Below, in pieces: positions 3,319-60,867 of a stretch of DNA of 64,000 nucleotides; positions within the stretch are counted from its first letter, which is position 1; every line of letters starts with the position of its first letter. The DNA is taken from NCBI GenBank assembly GCA_905221605.1, contig CAJNDS010002129.1:163501-227500 (forward strand). Direction: 5' to 3'. The DNA is from Symbiodinium natans (lineage: Eukaryota; Sar; Dinophyceae; Suessiales; Symbiodiniaceae). The position numbers were made by a program, and so were the translations under genes. Below the pieces are notes generated by a model that saw nothing but the letters and a program-made list of their open reading frames with translations, was not told the origin of the DNA and ran no database searches.

Positions 3319-6300
3319 GCTCCTCGCTTTAAAATTGGAAAAAATGGTGTGGGTTCGGGTCCCTTTCTTGGCTTTGGATTGAACACCCCAAACAGTGCTT
3401 GCACTGTGGGCTTGTTGTGTTAAGAATCATTTAAGAACAAGCGGACAACATTGACTAACTTTGCCATGTGTTGCGCACGACGGGTTCCGCAGTCCGCGAA
3501 GCCTGCATGCATTTCGCTCCTTCCTCGGCCGGTATACGTGTTCTGCTCCACATCAAGCTCTTGCTCGATCGTGTGCCCTGCAGATCTCGCTCAACGTCTT
3601 GCACTCGAAAGTTACTGCAGTTGCTCAGCCCCTGTGAAAGTACCGGGTGCGCGACACGATGCTCAAGATGAGTCCTACAAACATGATTTAGGTAAAAAAA
3701 CCCTCAAGCCTCGTTGCCTTTTGGGAGCCATGCAGGTTGGGGCGCAGATGACCACGGACAGCCGCTTGGACAGCAAGAAGAGCAGCTACTTTTAATCCCT
3801 CAGGTTCGGCTTGTTTCTCGGTGGGAACTTGTCAAGTGCCCCTTGCAGCCAAGAAAGACCGAGCGAGCAGGGCACGACATGTCCAGCGGCGCAGATGGCT
3901 AAACCCGACACCCTAAAAGTCCTCAGCTCATGGTGGAACTTTAGGCGAGTGCGGGGCTGACGTCAAGTTTGCCTGTCGCTTATGACTTCCCACGTTTGCC
4001 GCAATGCAGCTGCATTTCGGCAACTCCTAAAACCTTAAAGCCTAACCCAAGATTCCGAGCCCCAGTTCCCAGGCCAGAAGTCTCAAACTCTTCGATCCTC
4101 TGGACCCATACGACAGCAGCTTGAGGCGTCCTCTACAACCGGCAACCCCTCCGAAGCACCCCTGCAGAATTCTTAACTAGGGTTAGTAAGTTGCGGGTTT
4201 ATGGCTCAAAAGGAAGGGTTTAGGGTTTGGGGCTTAGGCTGAGCCTTAATTAAGTCAAAAAGGGTTGAGGTTGTTATAGATGGTAGGCTGATGTAGCTTC
4301 CATGTCTCAAGCACCCGAGGTCGAGCCCACCGAAGGCCGGTGTAGCAGGGCGCATACCTTCAGCCTGTTTAGGGTTTAGGGTTGTTAGGGTTCTGGGTTT
4401 TGGGTTTTGGGTTGTTAGGATTCAGGGTTTAGGGCTTACGGAAGTTTATTGTTTGGGTGAGTAAGCCCTTAAGACCTGTTTGCTCGATGGCTACACTTGC
4501 GGGTCCCTGCCATGCCGACGTCATGGGCTTTCATTCGGTGATGCCAGCATTGTCATTGTGTGTCAAGAGGCCTGGGATGGACCTGCACCCCTCTTCCCTG
4601 TTCCCTAAGCCTGAAACCCTAAGCCCCCCTGTTCCCCTGTTCCCTAAACCCTAAACCCTAAACCCTAAACCCCCCTGTTCCTGATCCAGGGATATTTTGT
4701 GAGCCTGGCGGCCGGGAAAAGCCATAGCTGCTTGGCTCGCCATCTTGTTTTTGACAGGACCGACGATGGGAGGCCGTAGGAAGTTGATTCAGGGTTTAGG
4801 GTTCGCTACGGCGTGCCTTGAACCAGTTTGCGTACGCAAGCCAGAGGTGTTGAGCGATGCCTGCAAGGAACACGTGCATGGTCAGCTCTGTATCGAAAAG
4901 GCATGTCCCAACTAGCCCTACAAAATGCCTGAATACATCTGAATACCTTTTGCAAGCCATTTCGGGATGCAGCATGGAGCCACAAACGCCTCGACAAAGC
5001 CAGGGAAAGGTTCAATGGCCGAGCAAGTCGGAGTCCTAGCTGTTGACAGGCATTGCCAAGATATCGCGACAGATGAGGCTGTGGCATAAGACCTTCCGGG
5101 CTGCTCGAATGCTGGGGCAGCAACGCGTGCCGCATCCGCAAGCAGACTCCGTCTCCAGAATCTGGGGTTCCACTGCATCTGTGGCTGAAACCGTCCATGT
5201 TTTCAGCGGCTGTTGTACCTCCTGGGGCTCCTGATGCTTAAGCACAGAGAAAGCTTCATTTTTGCCAGTATTCAGCTGGATTGCGATCCTACTTGGTACC
5301 CGCTTTTGTGCAATCGTCAACCGCGTTTGCTGTACTTGATCCTAGAAAGATCCCCTGAAGAAGGTGCAGGCGCAGGATTTCAAAGGCGGGTTTGACTAGT
5401 CAACGGGAGGGCTTCAGCCGCTGCCATAAACCTACAAGGGTCGGAGGTGTCACCTTAATATACCTTACTGCCAGCCACCTAGATGCTAACCTATTTTAAG
5501 AGGATGTGTCCGCATTGCTGTTTTTGGTGAGTGTATGTGTGGTTCCTTATACACATTGGCGGGTGTAAACTTTCAAGTGCATTCGCACGTCACTTTTGGG
5601 GTGATGCCAAAAAAAAGACCCCTCCCATATCACATACCAACAGCTGTATCCGGCATCGCCTTGTTGACACCTCGAGCCCCGAAGGAAGTAGACCATTGTT
5701 TGGACGTTCAGTCTGAGTGGTAGCCGATTGGAAACGAATAAGGGACCATGAGATGTTAAGTTTCATTCAGAAACCCTTAACCCTAAACCAGGAGTCCCTA
5801 TCCCCTTTTTGAAGCCTCTCCCCCTTTTCCCCTAAACCCCTAAACCCCTAAACCCCCAAACCCCCAAACCCCCAAACCTGCAAACCCCCAAACCCTAAAC
5901 CCTAAACCCTAAACCCCAAACCAGGCATCACCAGGGGGACATCCCCGACCTGGAGTTCCGCCAAGTCGCCTGCGGTGCGGCACACACCTGTGCTTTGGAC
6001 TCCGCCCCTTGCCTGCTCTTTAGGGTTTAGGTTTAGGGTTTAGGGCTTAGGGTTTAGGGTTTAGGGAAATCAGTGGTAAATGGTTCAGAAACTGGAGGCC
6101 GTAGAACCTCCTGCTGTGTGAAAACCGCATGGCCTGAACATGTCCAGGCGTAACCTTCCAAAGCCTGCTGCAAAAGGGTTTTGGGTTTAGGGTTTAGGAT
6201 TTGGGTATACAGTTTAGGGAGACCCTTCTTGAACGACTTGTTGACTCTTTGTTGGTTTTATCTATAAGGGGCCATGGAAATGATCATATTCAACGGCATT

Positions 6301-9300
6301 TCAAGAAGGCTAATTACCGATGCCACTGTTTTGCGTTGGCCCAAGGGCTGTGGAATAAGCTGTGTCCGCCCAAGTTCGGAAATGCAAAATGTCACATGTG
6401 TAGCCATAGAGAGAAGCTAGAAATGTTCTTACTTCAGTATAGTAGAAGCTGAACCCGAAAAAGCCTAAAGCTTTTTTTTTAATGTCGCTCAGGGCGGTGA
6501 AGTCCACTGCTGGGGCAGCTCGTTCGCGGCTGGATGTGGGACTCGCATTCGAAGATTGTTGATGGCCATGTCTTGATTGCACAGTAAGTTTCGCACACTG
6601 TGTCTATGATTGCACACTTGCTGGCTGCTTCTAACCGGCTTGTGGTGCCGTCATTGACCATGCACTCCTCCGTGCACCCCTGAGGTTTCGAAACCAAGAT
6701 CGAAGCTCTGACACCCGAAATCCTAAGAAACCTTTAACGCACGAGCGCCGAACTCGCAGACTTTCCTGGGTTCCTTACATGACCCCGATGAACGACCCCT
6801 ATACTCTAGAAGTAACCCCTACACTATATACGGGACTATATACCCTACACGCCTTGAAACAACCAGGCAGCGATGAGCATCAGCGCAGCTCTGGGTCGCC
6901 ATCCGGTAGGTGGGTTTCAGAGTTTGACACCTGGGGGTGTTCAGGGCCTGGGAACTGCACCCTCGTTCACAGGCAGGACACCCCAGGAGAACTGAACCAA
7001 GAAAGGAAGGGGTTTAGGCTTCGAAAAGGGTTAAGCGCTTTTAGGGTTTGGAGGTTCGGGTCTACTACATTGAGAGTTTGGGGATGGGGTGTTCCCCCCT
7101 TATATTCACAGTCCTTAATGGGGATTATAGTTAGGGGGGGGGGGGGGGACTATACTCCCTATTAAGGACTGTTAGTCTTAAGGGTGGAACATCCCAGTTT
7201 TTGCACTCGGGGTATGAAGGCTTGCCAGTCCGTAGGCCTTGGCTGAATACGCGCCCTCCAAAACGCCTTAGGAGAACCCCTCAAGTACGGAAGTCCCTTA
7301 AGTGACTCTCTTTGCAATTCTAGACGCCAACAGAGCACTAACTGGCAGGACAACGAGTTGAGACTTTCCAATAAGTCCACCAAAGCCGCAAACCTTAAAC
7401 CTTACACCCGCAACCCAAGCAGGTCGCCGTGAGATGGGTCCAGCATGCACTCATGTTGGGAGGTCCGGGATAAACCCAAGCAGGTTCGTCGCCATTGCAG
7501 CCTCTGGTGGCCACTCCTGCGCCCTCAAAAAGAGCGGCCGTGCACTGTGCTGGGGCTTCAACGATGCTTGAGATGGCATATGAGAAATTATGGGGGACTT
7601 TACGAGAACAGGGGACCCCTAATATAGACCCCCACATAGTAGGATACCCTCATAAAAAGGACCCCAAGAAGGTACCCCCTACTTTTCGGAAACCCCCATG
7701 GCTCAAATCCAAGGTTCTCAAAGGTTCTCAAAGGCTTCCTCCAAGACGTTAGGGGCTCAGGCCACAAGAGAACATGCAGCTGCTGCGCACCTGTCTGAGG
7801 ACAACAACCAGACGGACGCAGCTTGACTTCGCAGTGCACGCCGCGTCACACCTTGCAGTGCTGGGGTGACATGGAGAAACTTTCCTTCATTCCCTGACTT
7901 GTAGGGTTTACGATTTAGGGTTTAGGGCTTCTTGATCTGCACTGTTCTGCGGCACGGCTTTCTACTGATTGAATGCTTCTTCGGCGTAGGAGTTTGCGCG
8001 TTACGAGGAGCATGTTTCCTGTCCTCGAAGTCTACCCAAGGTTCCCAAGAGCAAGTTCAAGCAGATCGCTCCAGGTGTCTCAGCGCAAGCTTTGCTCAGG
8101 GTTGCGGGCTACTGGACTCCCCGAGCATCCCCAAAACACAACATAGTGGACTCTAACCCAGCAAGCTCGCGGCCAGCGTATTGAGTTGATCGTACCTTTT
8201 GGGTTGCTTGAGTGTGTTTTGGCTCGGTTGCTTGCTATACCCTATATAATCCCTTAAAGGGTATTATAGGGCCCTAATTCCCTCATTCCCTGGTCACCAA
8301 CAGCAAGTATGGAGAATTTCAGTTGTCAATCGTCCCGAAATATCATCCTGCAATGTGGGAGCTTTGCTGCTCAGTGGGTGGCAAGACAAAACTGCGATAC
8401 CATTCACTGGAGGGGTGCAGCTCAGCTTCTACCTTATTGAAATCCTTCTACTTGGAGGTCTAGATGAAGGGTCCCCTTTTTTCCAAATCCCTAAAAGGCC
8501 CTAAAACCTGTGTACCGAACCCTTTTACCCTGGACCTCTGCAGGCTATCTCCACACCTGTGCGCTGACTCGGCAGGACGAGGTGCTTTGCTGGGGGCAGA
8601 AGCCGTCCGGCAGAACTCCAGGCTGTTATTATTTCAGCATGGTAAAGTATAGGGCTTTGGTTTCTGTGGGGCTTAGGGTGGTTTAGGATTTTTTGGGTTT
8701 GTTCTCTGGTTTTTCTTGGTGAGATATGGTGCGGCAGCCCAGGGCGTTGACATCATGATTTGGGGGTTTGTGACCGATGGGTCTGCGGCATCGCCTAAGG
8801 TTTGAGGTGTCGACAGGCTGCAAACCCGAACTTTCAGCAGGCCACACCAAGTGCTACAGCAACTGCCGATGGCACCGTACTGTAGCATCTGCAAAGCAGG
8901 AAATACGTGTTGCCCATCACATGCTTTCTGCGGCCTGTGCTCAGAAACCATGGCTTATGTTCCTTGACTCCAAGGCGAGGGGACAACAAGCCTCCTCCCG
9001 GACCGGGTTGATCCGTGATGCTAGGGTTTAGGGTTTAGGGTTTAGCACTTAGATGCTGGGCGTTCCTTACGGAAGGGTATTCGATTCGGGCATTGCGGTA
9101 GAGCTGCACCACAGGTCAGGAGCCTTGGAGAAGTTTTGCAGCGGTAGAGCTTCGTGCTGCACGGCAATTTCCCACCCTGCCAGCCCGCCCACAATGGCCT
9201 CTGAACTTCAAAGTGAGTCGTCGGGTCAAGGCGGATCACTTACAGGCCGACACCAGCCGAACATGCCAAGGGCAGTCCGGGAGGGTGGGGGGGAGAGGGA

Positions 9301-60635: not shown

Positions 60636-60867
60636 CCCGCCCTCAACTCCAAACCCACAAGACCTCTCAGCGAGCATAGGGTTTTGGGTTCAGGGGTGTG
60701 GGAGGGCTTGGCCAGCCTGTCTTTTCGCACGACGGGCCTTTCATCGAGCAGCAGCTCGTTTAAAAATGAAAGGAGAGGCTGCTGTTTGCAATGCATGCTG
60801 CGCTTTCACAATTTCGCACACAGGTCTGTCCAGCAGTGCACTTCCAGTGAAAGTTTTTGGGCTTGAT

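Follow-up and report, generated by a model that had tools for sequence, protein, structure and literature searches.

Why do the exons of a dinoflagellate gene look as though they were capped by telomeres? The question is raised by a 64,000-nucleotide stretch of the Symbiodinium natans genome (assembly GCA_905221605.1, contig CAJNDS010002129.1, positions 163,501 to 227,500), hereafter the window, in which positions are counted from the first letter. S. natans is a free-living species related to coral symbionts. The window has a GC content of 52.0% and holds 246 copies of the heptamer TTTAGGG and 138 of CCCTAAA. A first-pass annotation proposed that its exons are flanked by telomere-type arrays pointing outward, with either fused telomere-capped fragments or elements with telomere-like terminal inverted repeats as the cause. 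The outward orientation of arrays around exons is confirmed here and is real in S. natans; it is a strong tendency and no rule. The explanation favoured, at a probability of roughly 0.47, is that heptamer microsatellites grow within introns and persist in whichever orientation the nearby splice site tolerates or uses, splicing thereby polarising them.

Orientation at the Edges of Mapped Exons

An array was defined as a chain of 14-mers, each differing from two heptamer units by no more than one mismatch. "Outward" denotes CCCTAAA to the left and TTTAGGG to the right of an exon on the plus strand (the order '-+'), and inward the order '+-'. Exons were located with a spliced aligner written for the analysis, in which donors are G[TCA] and acceptors AG, so the intron class is set by the aligner. 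Five genes were mapped: an LRR gene and an RCC1 gene, both in the window, and Man1a1, PABPC4 and the unnamed gene of protein P0064. The last three were aligned with S. natans proteins and are identical in every exon, with 725/725 residues of Man1a1 aligned in 31 exons, 575/575 of P0064 in 30 and 320/370 of PABPC4 in 21. The LRR gene was aligned with P0052, an MMETSP transcript protein, and the RCC1 gene with P0004 (CCR3 of Symbiodinium sp. CCMP2592); as both proteins come from another organism, the exon ends of these two genes are approximate. Aligned blocks shorter than 5 residues or below 70% identity were left out before counting (4 of 33 for LRR, 9 of 27 for RCC1).

Among the 129 exons of the five genes, 115 edges have an array within 150 bp, and the nearest array points outward at 86 of them. 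Circular shifting of positions (1000 shifts) gives a null outward fraction of 0.509 (standard deviation 0.052, maximum 0.675). Exons in stretches added after the pattern was recognised show the same orientation at 24/35 edges (p = 0.041). In an earlier set of 92 exons, 348/437 heptamers within 150 b of an exon were outward, with a null maximum of 0.706. By gene, the outward edges are 18/23 for LRR, 7/9 for RCC1, 27/35 for PABPC4, 22/27 for P0064 and 12/21 for Man1a1; genes therefore differ in bias. That the orientation holds for genes on both strands likewise stands as a tendency.

The two genes of the window and the arrays around the exons at issue are as follows.

3240-11212, plus strand: RCC1 (CCR3-like) gene, 18 kept exons of 27 aligned blocks, by spliced alignment to P0004
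4641-4673, minus: CCCTAAA array, 16 nt before RCC1-gene exon 4690
4690-4726, plus: RCC1-gene exon, aligned part (GYFVSLAAGKSHSC...), by spliced alignment to P0004
5886-5922, minus: CCCTAAA array, ending 2 nt before exon 5925
5925-6003, plus: RCC1-gene exon, by Pfam scan and spliced alignment
6018-6067, plus: TTTAGGG array, 14 nt after aligned exon 5925
23485-23556, minus: CCCTAAA array left of candidate exon 23617
23706-23758, plus: TTTAGGG array right of candidate exon 23617
35775-35790, minus: CCCTAAA array directly before an EF-hand-like stretch
35900-35920, plus: TTTAGGG array after the EF-hand-like stretch
45651-60132, minus: LRR gene, 29 kept exons of 33 aligned blocks, by alignment to P0052 and the LRR domains of P0052
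45544-45644, minus: CCCTAAA array, 6 nt left of the last LRR-gene exon
45651-45737, minus: last LRR-gene exon, by spliced alignment to P0052
45792-45911, plus: TTTAGGG array right of LRR exon 45651
52309-52384, minus: LRR-gene exon with inward TTTAGGG on its left (exception), by protein alignment
52733-52874, minus: CCCTAAA array left of a 12-nt exon
52950-52961, minus: 12-nt microexon, 3 aligned residues, not in the counts, by protein alignment
52986-53068, plus: TTTAGGG array right of the microexon
56988-57069, minus: LRR-gene exon, outward array on the right only, 4 nt away, by protein alignment
58477-58562, minus: LRR-gene exon, outward array on the right only, 21 nt away, by protein alignment
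58584-58673, plus: TTTAGGG array right of exon 58477
60344-60392, minus: CCCTAAA array left of candidate exon 60391
60508-60636, plus: TTTAGGG array right of candidate exon 60391

Ten exons had been named as capped examples, and outward arrays lie within 150 bp on both sides of seven of them (5925, 23617, 35793, 45650, 51708, 52909 and 60391), the bounds of 23617, 35793 and 60391 having been set by the analyst for this check. Exons 56988 and 58477 are capped on the right and not on the left. Exon 52309 does not belong among the examples, as the TTTAGGG on its left makes it an exception, while 47725 had been named an exception correctly. Protein alignments confirm that 5925, 45650, 47725, 52309, 56988 and 58477 are exons; two others are displaced, the aligned exon being at 51754-51800 for "51708" and being the 12-nt exon 52950-52961 for "52909". 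Candidates 23617 and 60391 have no confirmation from any protein, and no gene model covers the CDPK gene to which 23617 and 35793 had been assigned. By eye, the stretch at 35793 resembles an EF-hand, and an adjacent frame gives an EF-hand match that stays under the Pfam cut-off. Pfam scans of the three plus frames of 4600-9000 detected RCC1 repeats, along with a DNA_pol_A_exoN match (E 0.19), and those of the plus frames of 23000-28000 gave no match. No Rfam family matched the window at gathering scores, and the spliced-leader motif was absent from the window at up to one mismatch.

Polarity Inside Introns

With T and C denoting TTTAGGG and CCCTAAA in the sense orientation of the gene, donor-proximal arrays (no more than 150 nt away) are T in 46 and C in 16 cases across 121 introns, and acceptor-proximal ones, by the same limit, are C in 55 and T in 12. 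The claim that introns read TTTAGGG...CCCTAAA is thus borne out as a tendency. No polarity is seen deeper in the same introns: arrays lying 150 nt or more from each end show no bias (first half T 20/C 17, second half T 21/C 19). Array coverage is highest about 40-110 nt from splice sites (84 introns). Positions -45 to -11 are at least 80% filled by a C array in 16 of the 121 introns and by a T array in 1, and the usual branch and pyrimidine region is therefore telomere-type sequence there; positions +11 to +45 are filled by T arrays in 10 introns and by C arrays in 1. In 5/43 cases, no more than 4 nt separate the C array from the end of the intron.

Intron ends that are free of arrays lean the same way as the arrays, more weakly, and significantly at the acceptor only. 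The 34 array-free acceptor ends hold CCC 81 and GGG 23 times (17 vs 6 by ends, p = 0.035), the 38 array-free donor ends hold GGG 95 and CCC 52 times, and intron middles stand at 19 vs 19 of 49. Pyrimidine runs are enriched in 27 array-free introns (59/kb vs 34 shuffled). There is also a hint that donor-side T arrays accompany fewer GT donors, which are found in 4/40 introns with such an array and in 21/84 without (p = 0.058); the first 87 introns, under a slightly different definition, had given 1/29 vs 15/58.

Order and Spacing Without Gene Models

The assembly comprises 759,417,921 bases, and the largest contig seen, C1, has 3,396,986 b. A three-unit pattern matches 1,185,204 and 1,184,385 times on the two strands, whereas a backward-read control matches 41 and 33 times. 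Perfect telomere-type arrays make up at least 16.6 Mb, or 2.2% of the genome. Ten 10-kb loci (labelled L with a number) were sampled; the remaining ten of 20 random placements overran their contigs, which favours longer contigs in the sample. Five loci carry 8-45 arrays, two carry 1-2 and three none, and two of the ten contain N runs, of 2.6 and 5.0 kb. One array-free locus, L009 (C1006:31569-41568), matches itself throughout at many offsets, like a satellite.

Between a CCCTAAA array and the TTTAGGG array that follows it, 36 gaps occur in the loci; 28 measure 75-200 b and none is shorter than 50 b. The gap lengths of the other three array orders are broad. Orientations were shuffled 2000 times with array positions fixed, in the window and in L010-L018. 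In these loci, outward gaps of 60-200 b number 28 vs 12.7 shuffled (reached in 0/2000), inward gaps 6 vs 12.8 (as low in 12/2000) and outward gaps under 45 b 0 vs 4.8 (9/2000). In the window, outward gaps of 60-200 b number 13 vs 6.7 (reached in 3/2000), and the reduction of inward gaps and of short outward gaps is not significant (282/2000 and 535/2000 shuffles).

The same spacing is seen genome-wide in placements of two units on either side of a spacer, where several placements are possible per site and the spacer may itself contain units. At 85-115 b apart there are 107,320 outward and 41,057 inward placements, and at 15-45 b there are 3,488 and 8,523, a drop of 31-fold for the outward order and 4.8-fold for the inward one; outward arrays therefore often lie about one exon apart and rarely closer. 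Hand counts of sites among the matches listed for C1 give 57 outward in 0.53 Mb and 37 inward in 0.68 Mb at 85-115 b, and 14 outward in the whole 3.4 Mb and 34 inward in 2.95 Mb at 15-45 b, the last matches being listed more thinly toward the end of the stretch. The mean exon of S. natans is 106 b and the mean intron 486 b; its donors are GC in 58%, GT in 23.6% and GA in 18.4%, and 97.1% of its acceptors are AGG (PMC10666404). A scan of viral contigs for the outward pattern gave 0 matches. At the start of C1 (1-235650) there is no forward-strand three-unit TTTAGGG among the matches listed, and beyond it they are dense.

Where Arrays Occur and How They Change

In the stretches examined, arrays are concentrated in introns. 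The introns of the five genes contain 206 arrays in 65.8 kb (3.13/kb, 16.8% of bases), and flanks of 2.5 kb before Man1a1, 3.0 kb beyond the end of P0064 and 3.2 kb before its start are without arrays. The proportion of introns with an array rises with length, from 1/12 below 120 nt through 19/41 at 120-350 nt and 31/46 at 350-700 nt to 25/25 at 700 nt or more; the median length is 575.5 nt with an array vs 211.5 nt without (p = 2e-9).

The internal arrays are made of the telomere unit, as identified in the dinoflagellate literature (PMC11453091). Across 128 arrays of at least 4 units, 1056 units were counted, the count being limited to those that end in GGG and differ from TTTAGGG at no more than one position; 816 of them are TTTAGGG itself. 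Identical variant units stand side by side 76 times, vs 6.1 when shuffled over all arrays (maximum 16) and 47.5 when shuffled within arrays (maximum 57), a sign of expansion by tandem duplication. Arrays also differ between the two copies of a duplicated stretch in L017, which has no gene model: the flanks are common to both copies and the array lengths differ strongly, with a T array of about 250 b in one copy and little at the same place in the other. A common exon-like segment is followed directly by TTTAGGG in one copy and by CCCTAAA in the other, where TTTAGGG comes about 100 b later.

A Proposed Splicing-Based Explanation and Its Weak Points

According to the favoured explanation, telomere-type heptamer microsatellites would arise and expand inside introns by local tandem duplication, and the orientation in which an array survives would depend on the nearest splice site. 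Near the donor, the strand with G triplets (sense TTTAGGG) would be retained. Near the acceptor, the G-free and pyrimidine-rich CCCTAAA strand would be kept because the array there is itself incorporated into the 3' splice region; TTTAGGG shortly before an acceptor would create numerous spurious TTTAG|G acceptors and would mostly be lost. The capped look of exons would follow from the position of every internal exon between an acceptor and a donor. Selection on splicing would then be the cause of the polarity, and the arrays would help splicing rather than merely be tolerated. Splicing is a likelier cause of the orientation than the fusion of chromosome fragments.

Several observations weigh against this explanation. 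Man1a1 is nearly without bias. Within mapped introns of four genes there are 18 internal CCCTAAA...TTTAGGG gaps of 45-200 bp, and the absence of bias deep in introns may itself be blurred by exons missing from gene models. Some flanks do contain arrays: 5 in the 6.8 kb after Man1a1, 8 in the last 1.9 kb of the start flank of P0064, and 6 in the 2.0 kb past the mapped portion of PABPC4, a flank that may still be transcribed. Counted by ends, the donor GGG lean of array-free introns lacks significance (18 vs 11, p = 0.27), intron middles hold CCC 84 and GGG 57 times, and the GT hint lost strength with more data. A CTAA/CTRAY-like branch motif is not enriched before the acceptors of the 27 array-free introns (CTRAY 0.9/kb vs 3.2 shuffled); C arrays are therefore not simple copies of a branch consensus, and that version of the idea, with CTRAY below the shuffled level, is unsupported. 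Avoidance of false acceptors alone does not explain the excess of T at the donor side, and a filter acting at the acceptor alone, against false AG near the 3' end, was rejected since the donor side is biased too. Finally, a splicing model leaves the exact identity of the unit with the telomere heptamer unaccounted for.

A bolder form of the splicing-based explanation is speculative and on the unlikely side: TTTAGGG arrays would define donors and CCCTAAA arrays acceptors for many introns with weak GC/GA/GT sites, the repeat of the chromosome end having been turned into a genome-wide splicing signal.

Other Explanations for the Polarity

The alternative that survives best is unlikely all the same. 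It holds that the introns are introners, made by a DNA transposon with telomere-like terminal inverted repeats that inserted in genes and whose interior has decayed. At both splice sites, arrays do lie only a few nt to some tens of nt away, and introners with inverted repeats have been reported in Symbiodinium microadriaticum (PMC9860276). A donor T and an acceptor C occur together in 22/124 introns, with an odds ratio of 3.7 for their association (p = 0.002); within three intron-length classes, however, the association is not significant (p = 1.0, 0.35 and 0.09), and array presence scales with intron length from 1/12 to 25/25 as given above. The interior of one intron with both a donor T and an acceptor C (L012:6800-7330, 531 b) is unique in the genome outside its array. 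A masked all-vs-all comparison of the window and the ten loci, which was not systematic for this purpose, yielded pieces of about 100 bp resembling miniature inverted-repeat transposable elements (MITEs) and local duplications, and no whole-intron family was noticed. The element with telomere-like inverted repeats put forward in the first-pass annotation predicts repeated interiors and paired ends and is unsupported as stated, because the one tested interior is unique and the ends are only loosely associated.

A somewhat fainter prospect is that the complementary arrays at the two intron ends form a stem which joins weak splice sites, the pairing itself being under selection. The arrays are complementary by sequence and commoner in long introns, and the donor-T/acceptor-C association is strongest, without significance, at 700 nt or more (12/15 vs 4/10, p = 0.09). 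Introners of Amoebophrya with a hairpin joining exon boundaries (PMC7789003) offer a parallel. Against pairing, 39 of the 61 introns that have either a donor T or an acceptor C have only one of the two. Pairing of the ends may act in long introns.

Less probable again is the healing of breaks by telomerase, in which TTTAGGG is added to both 3' ends and the ends are rejoined as exon-TTTAGGG...CCCTAAA-exon. The polarity is exactly that of telomerase at both ends of a break, the heptamer is the dinoflagellate telomere repeat (PMC11453091), and insertion of telomere repeats at breaks has been described in mammals (PMC7215372). In a test for head-to-head junctions, introns held 42 neighbouring T-to-C pairs; in 8 the gap is under 20 b, and the other 34 are 36-584 b apart. 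This route would need very many events for more than 1 million three-unit matches per strand, requires breaks near splice sites, and is at odds with variant units that cluster as in tandem duplication. The related proposal of fused telomere-capped fragments is unsupported as stated and was rejected as the main cause, since breaks would be needed in most introns of ordinary colinear genes, whose mapped exons are 12-253 nt long.

Chance or an assembly or gene-model error is very improbable: exon ends do rest on alignments and deposited protein models, and P0064 seems short of exons, but pattern counts free of gene models give the same order and spacing, and the backward-read control is nearly empty.

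Capping as an Exon Finder

Gaps of the form CCCTAAA...TTTAGGG can serve as a practical exon finder. Within the gene regions that were mapped first, a mapped exon lies in 14 of the 27 outward gaps of 45-200 b, as against 1/9 inward, 5/13 '++' and 1/7 '--' gaps. One of the 13 other outward gaps holds the filtered 12-nt exon at 52950-52961. Another, L011:4992-5147, has no annotated exon and matches residues 20-55 of the related protein P0065 (50% over 36 residues, E 0.033), whose residues 1-20 match L011:5733-5792 more strongly (E 1.4e-4), within an intron of the P0064 model. The deposited S. natans protein P0064 may thus join genes or miss exons, judging from these matches. Eleven outward gaps are unexplained, and capping is therefore no proof of an exon. 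As a separate matter, a plus-strand peptide at L013:4130-4223 had been taken for a PABPC4 exon, wrongly, as spliced alignment places the exon there on the opposite strand; a Pfam scan of the minus strand of L013 gave no match.

Other Repeats and Frames

The MITE-like inverted-repeat family of about 100 bp has copies at 56846-56950, 51428-51528 and 26203-26293 of the window and at L017:2646-2734 and 6635-6735, where its ends read TTGGGATGTTCCCCC and GGGGGAACATCCCAA; the copies are intronic wherever a gene model exists. A second dispersed family, of about 90 bp, is found at 536-620, 7600-7697, 25239-25347 and 58245-58295 of the window and at L013:6093-6190. The window further contains a TG-rich repeat stretch of 1.3 kb (42862-44163), a run of 89 G (47005-47093), a 32/63/95-bp minisatellite (39104-39451) and a 482-codon open frame read without introns (11752-13197), which matches the MSS51 C-terminal domain.

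Comparison With Known Systems

With this polarity, three matters become testable: how introns with degenerate donors are recognised in dinoflagellates, how dinoflagellate intron richness originated, and whether telomere-type repeats can be captured for RNA processing. Among the papers listed in a literature search, none was seen to describe telomere-type arrays in dinoflagellate introns; the search did not cover Roy et al. 2023 (dinoflagellate introners), and as that work may bear on the introner comparison, priority cannot be claimed. The text of the S. natans genome paper (PMC8045281) contains no word beginning with "telomer".

Four known systems invite comparison. The short interstitial telomeric sequences of mammals are likewise short internal telomere-type arrays, some of them head to head (PMC7215372); unlike these, of which the horse has 142 loci (PMC7215372), the arrays of S. 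natans are far more numerous, concentrated in introns in the stretches examined, and oriented by splice sites. Plant telo boxes are likewise telomere-unit motifs in genes (PMC3022908), but are short motifs in the 5' region of genes, whereas the S. natans arrays lie near intron ends throughout genes. The introner elements of Amoebophrya, from a dinoflagellate lineage, have inverted-repeat intron ends, with repeats of 8-20 nt (PMC7789003); those introns have mostly non-canonical splice sites and direct repeats, in contrast to telomere-type arrays and introns that the aligner sets as G[TCA]...AG in S. natans. Closest by genus are the introners with terminal inverted repeats, including those of S. 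microadriaticum (PMC9860276), which carry inverted repeats at both intron ends, as some S. natans introns (22/124) have inverted telomere-type arrays near both ends; S. natans differs from them in lacking a repeated interior in the one intron tested, in ends that are unreliably paired, and in having tandem arrays in place of fixed ends.

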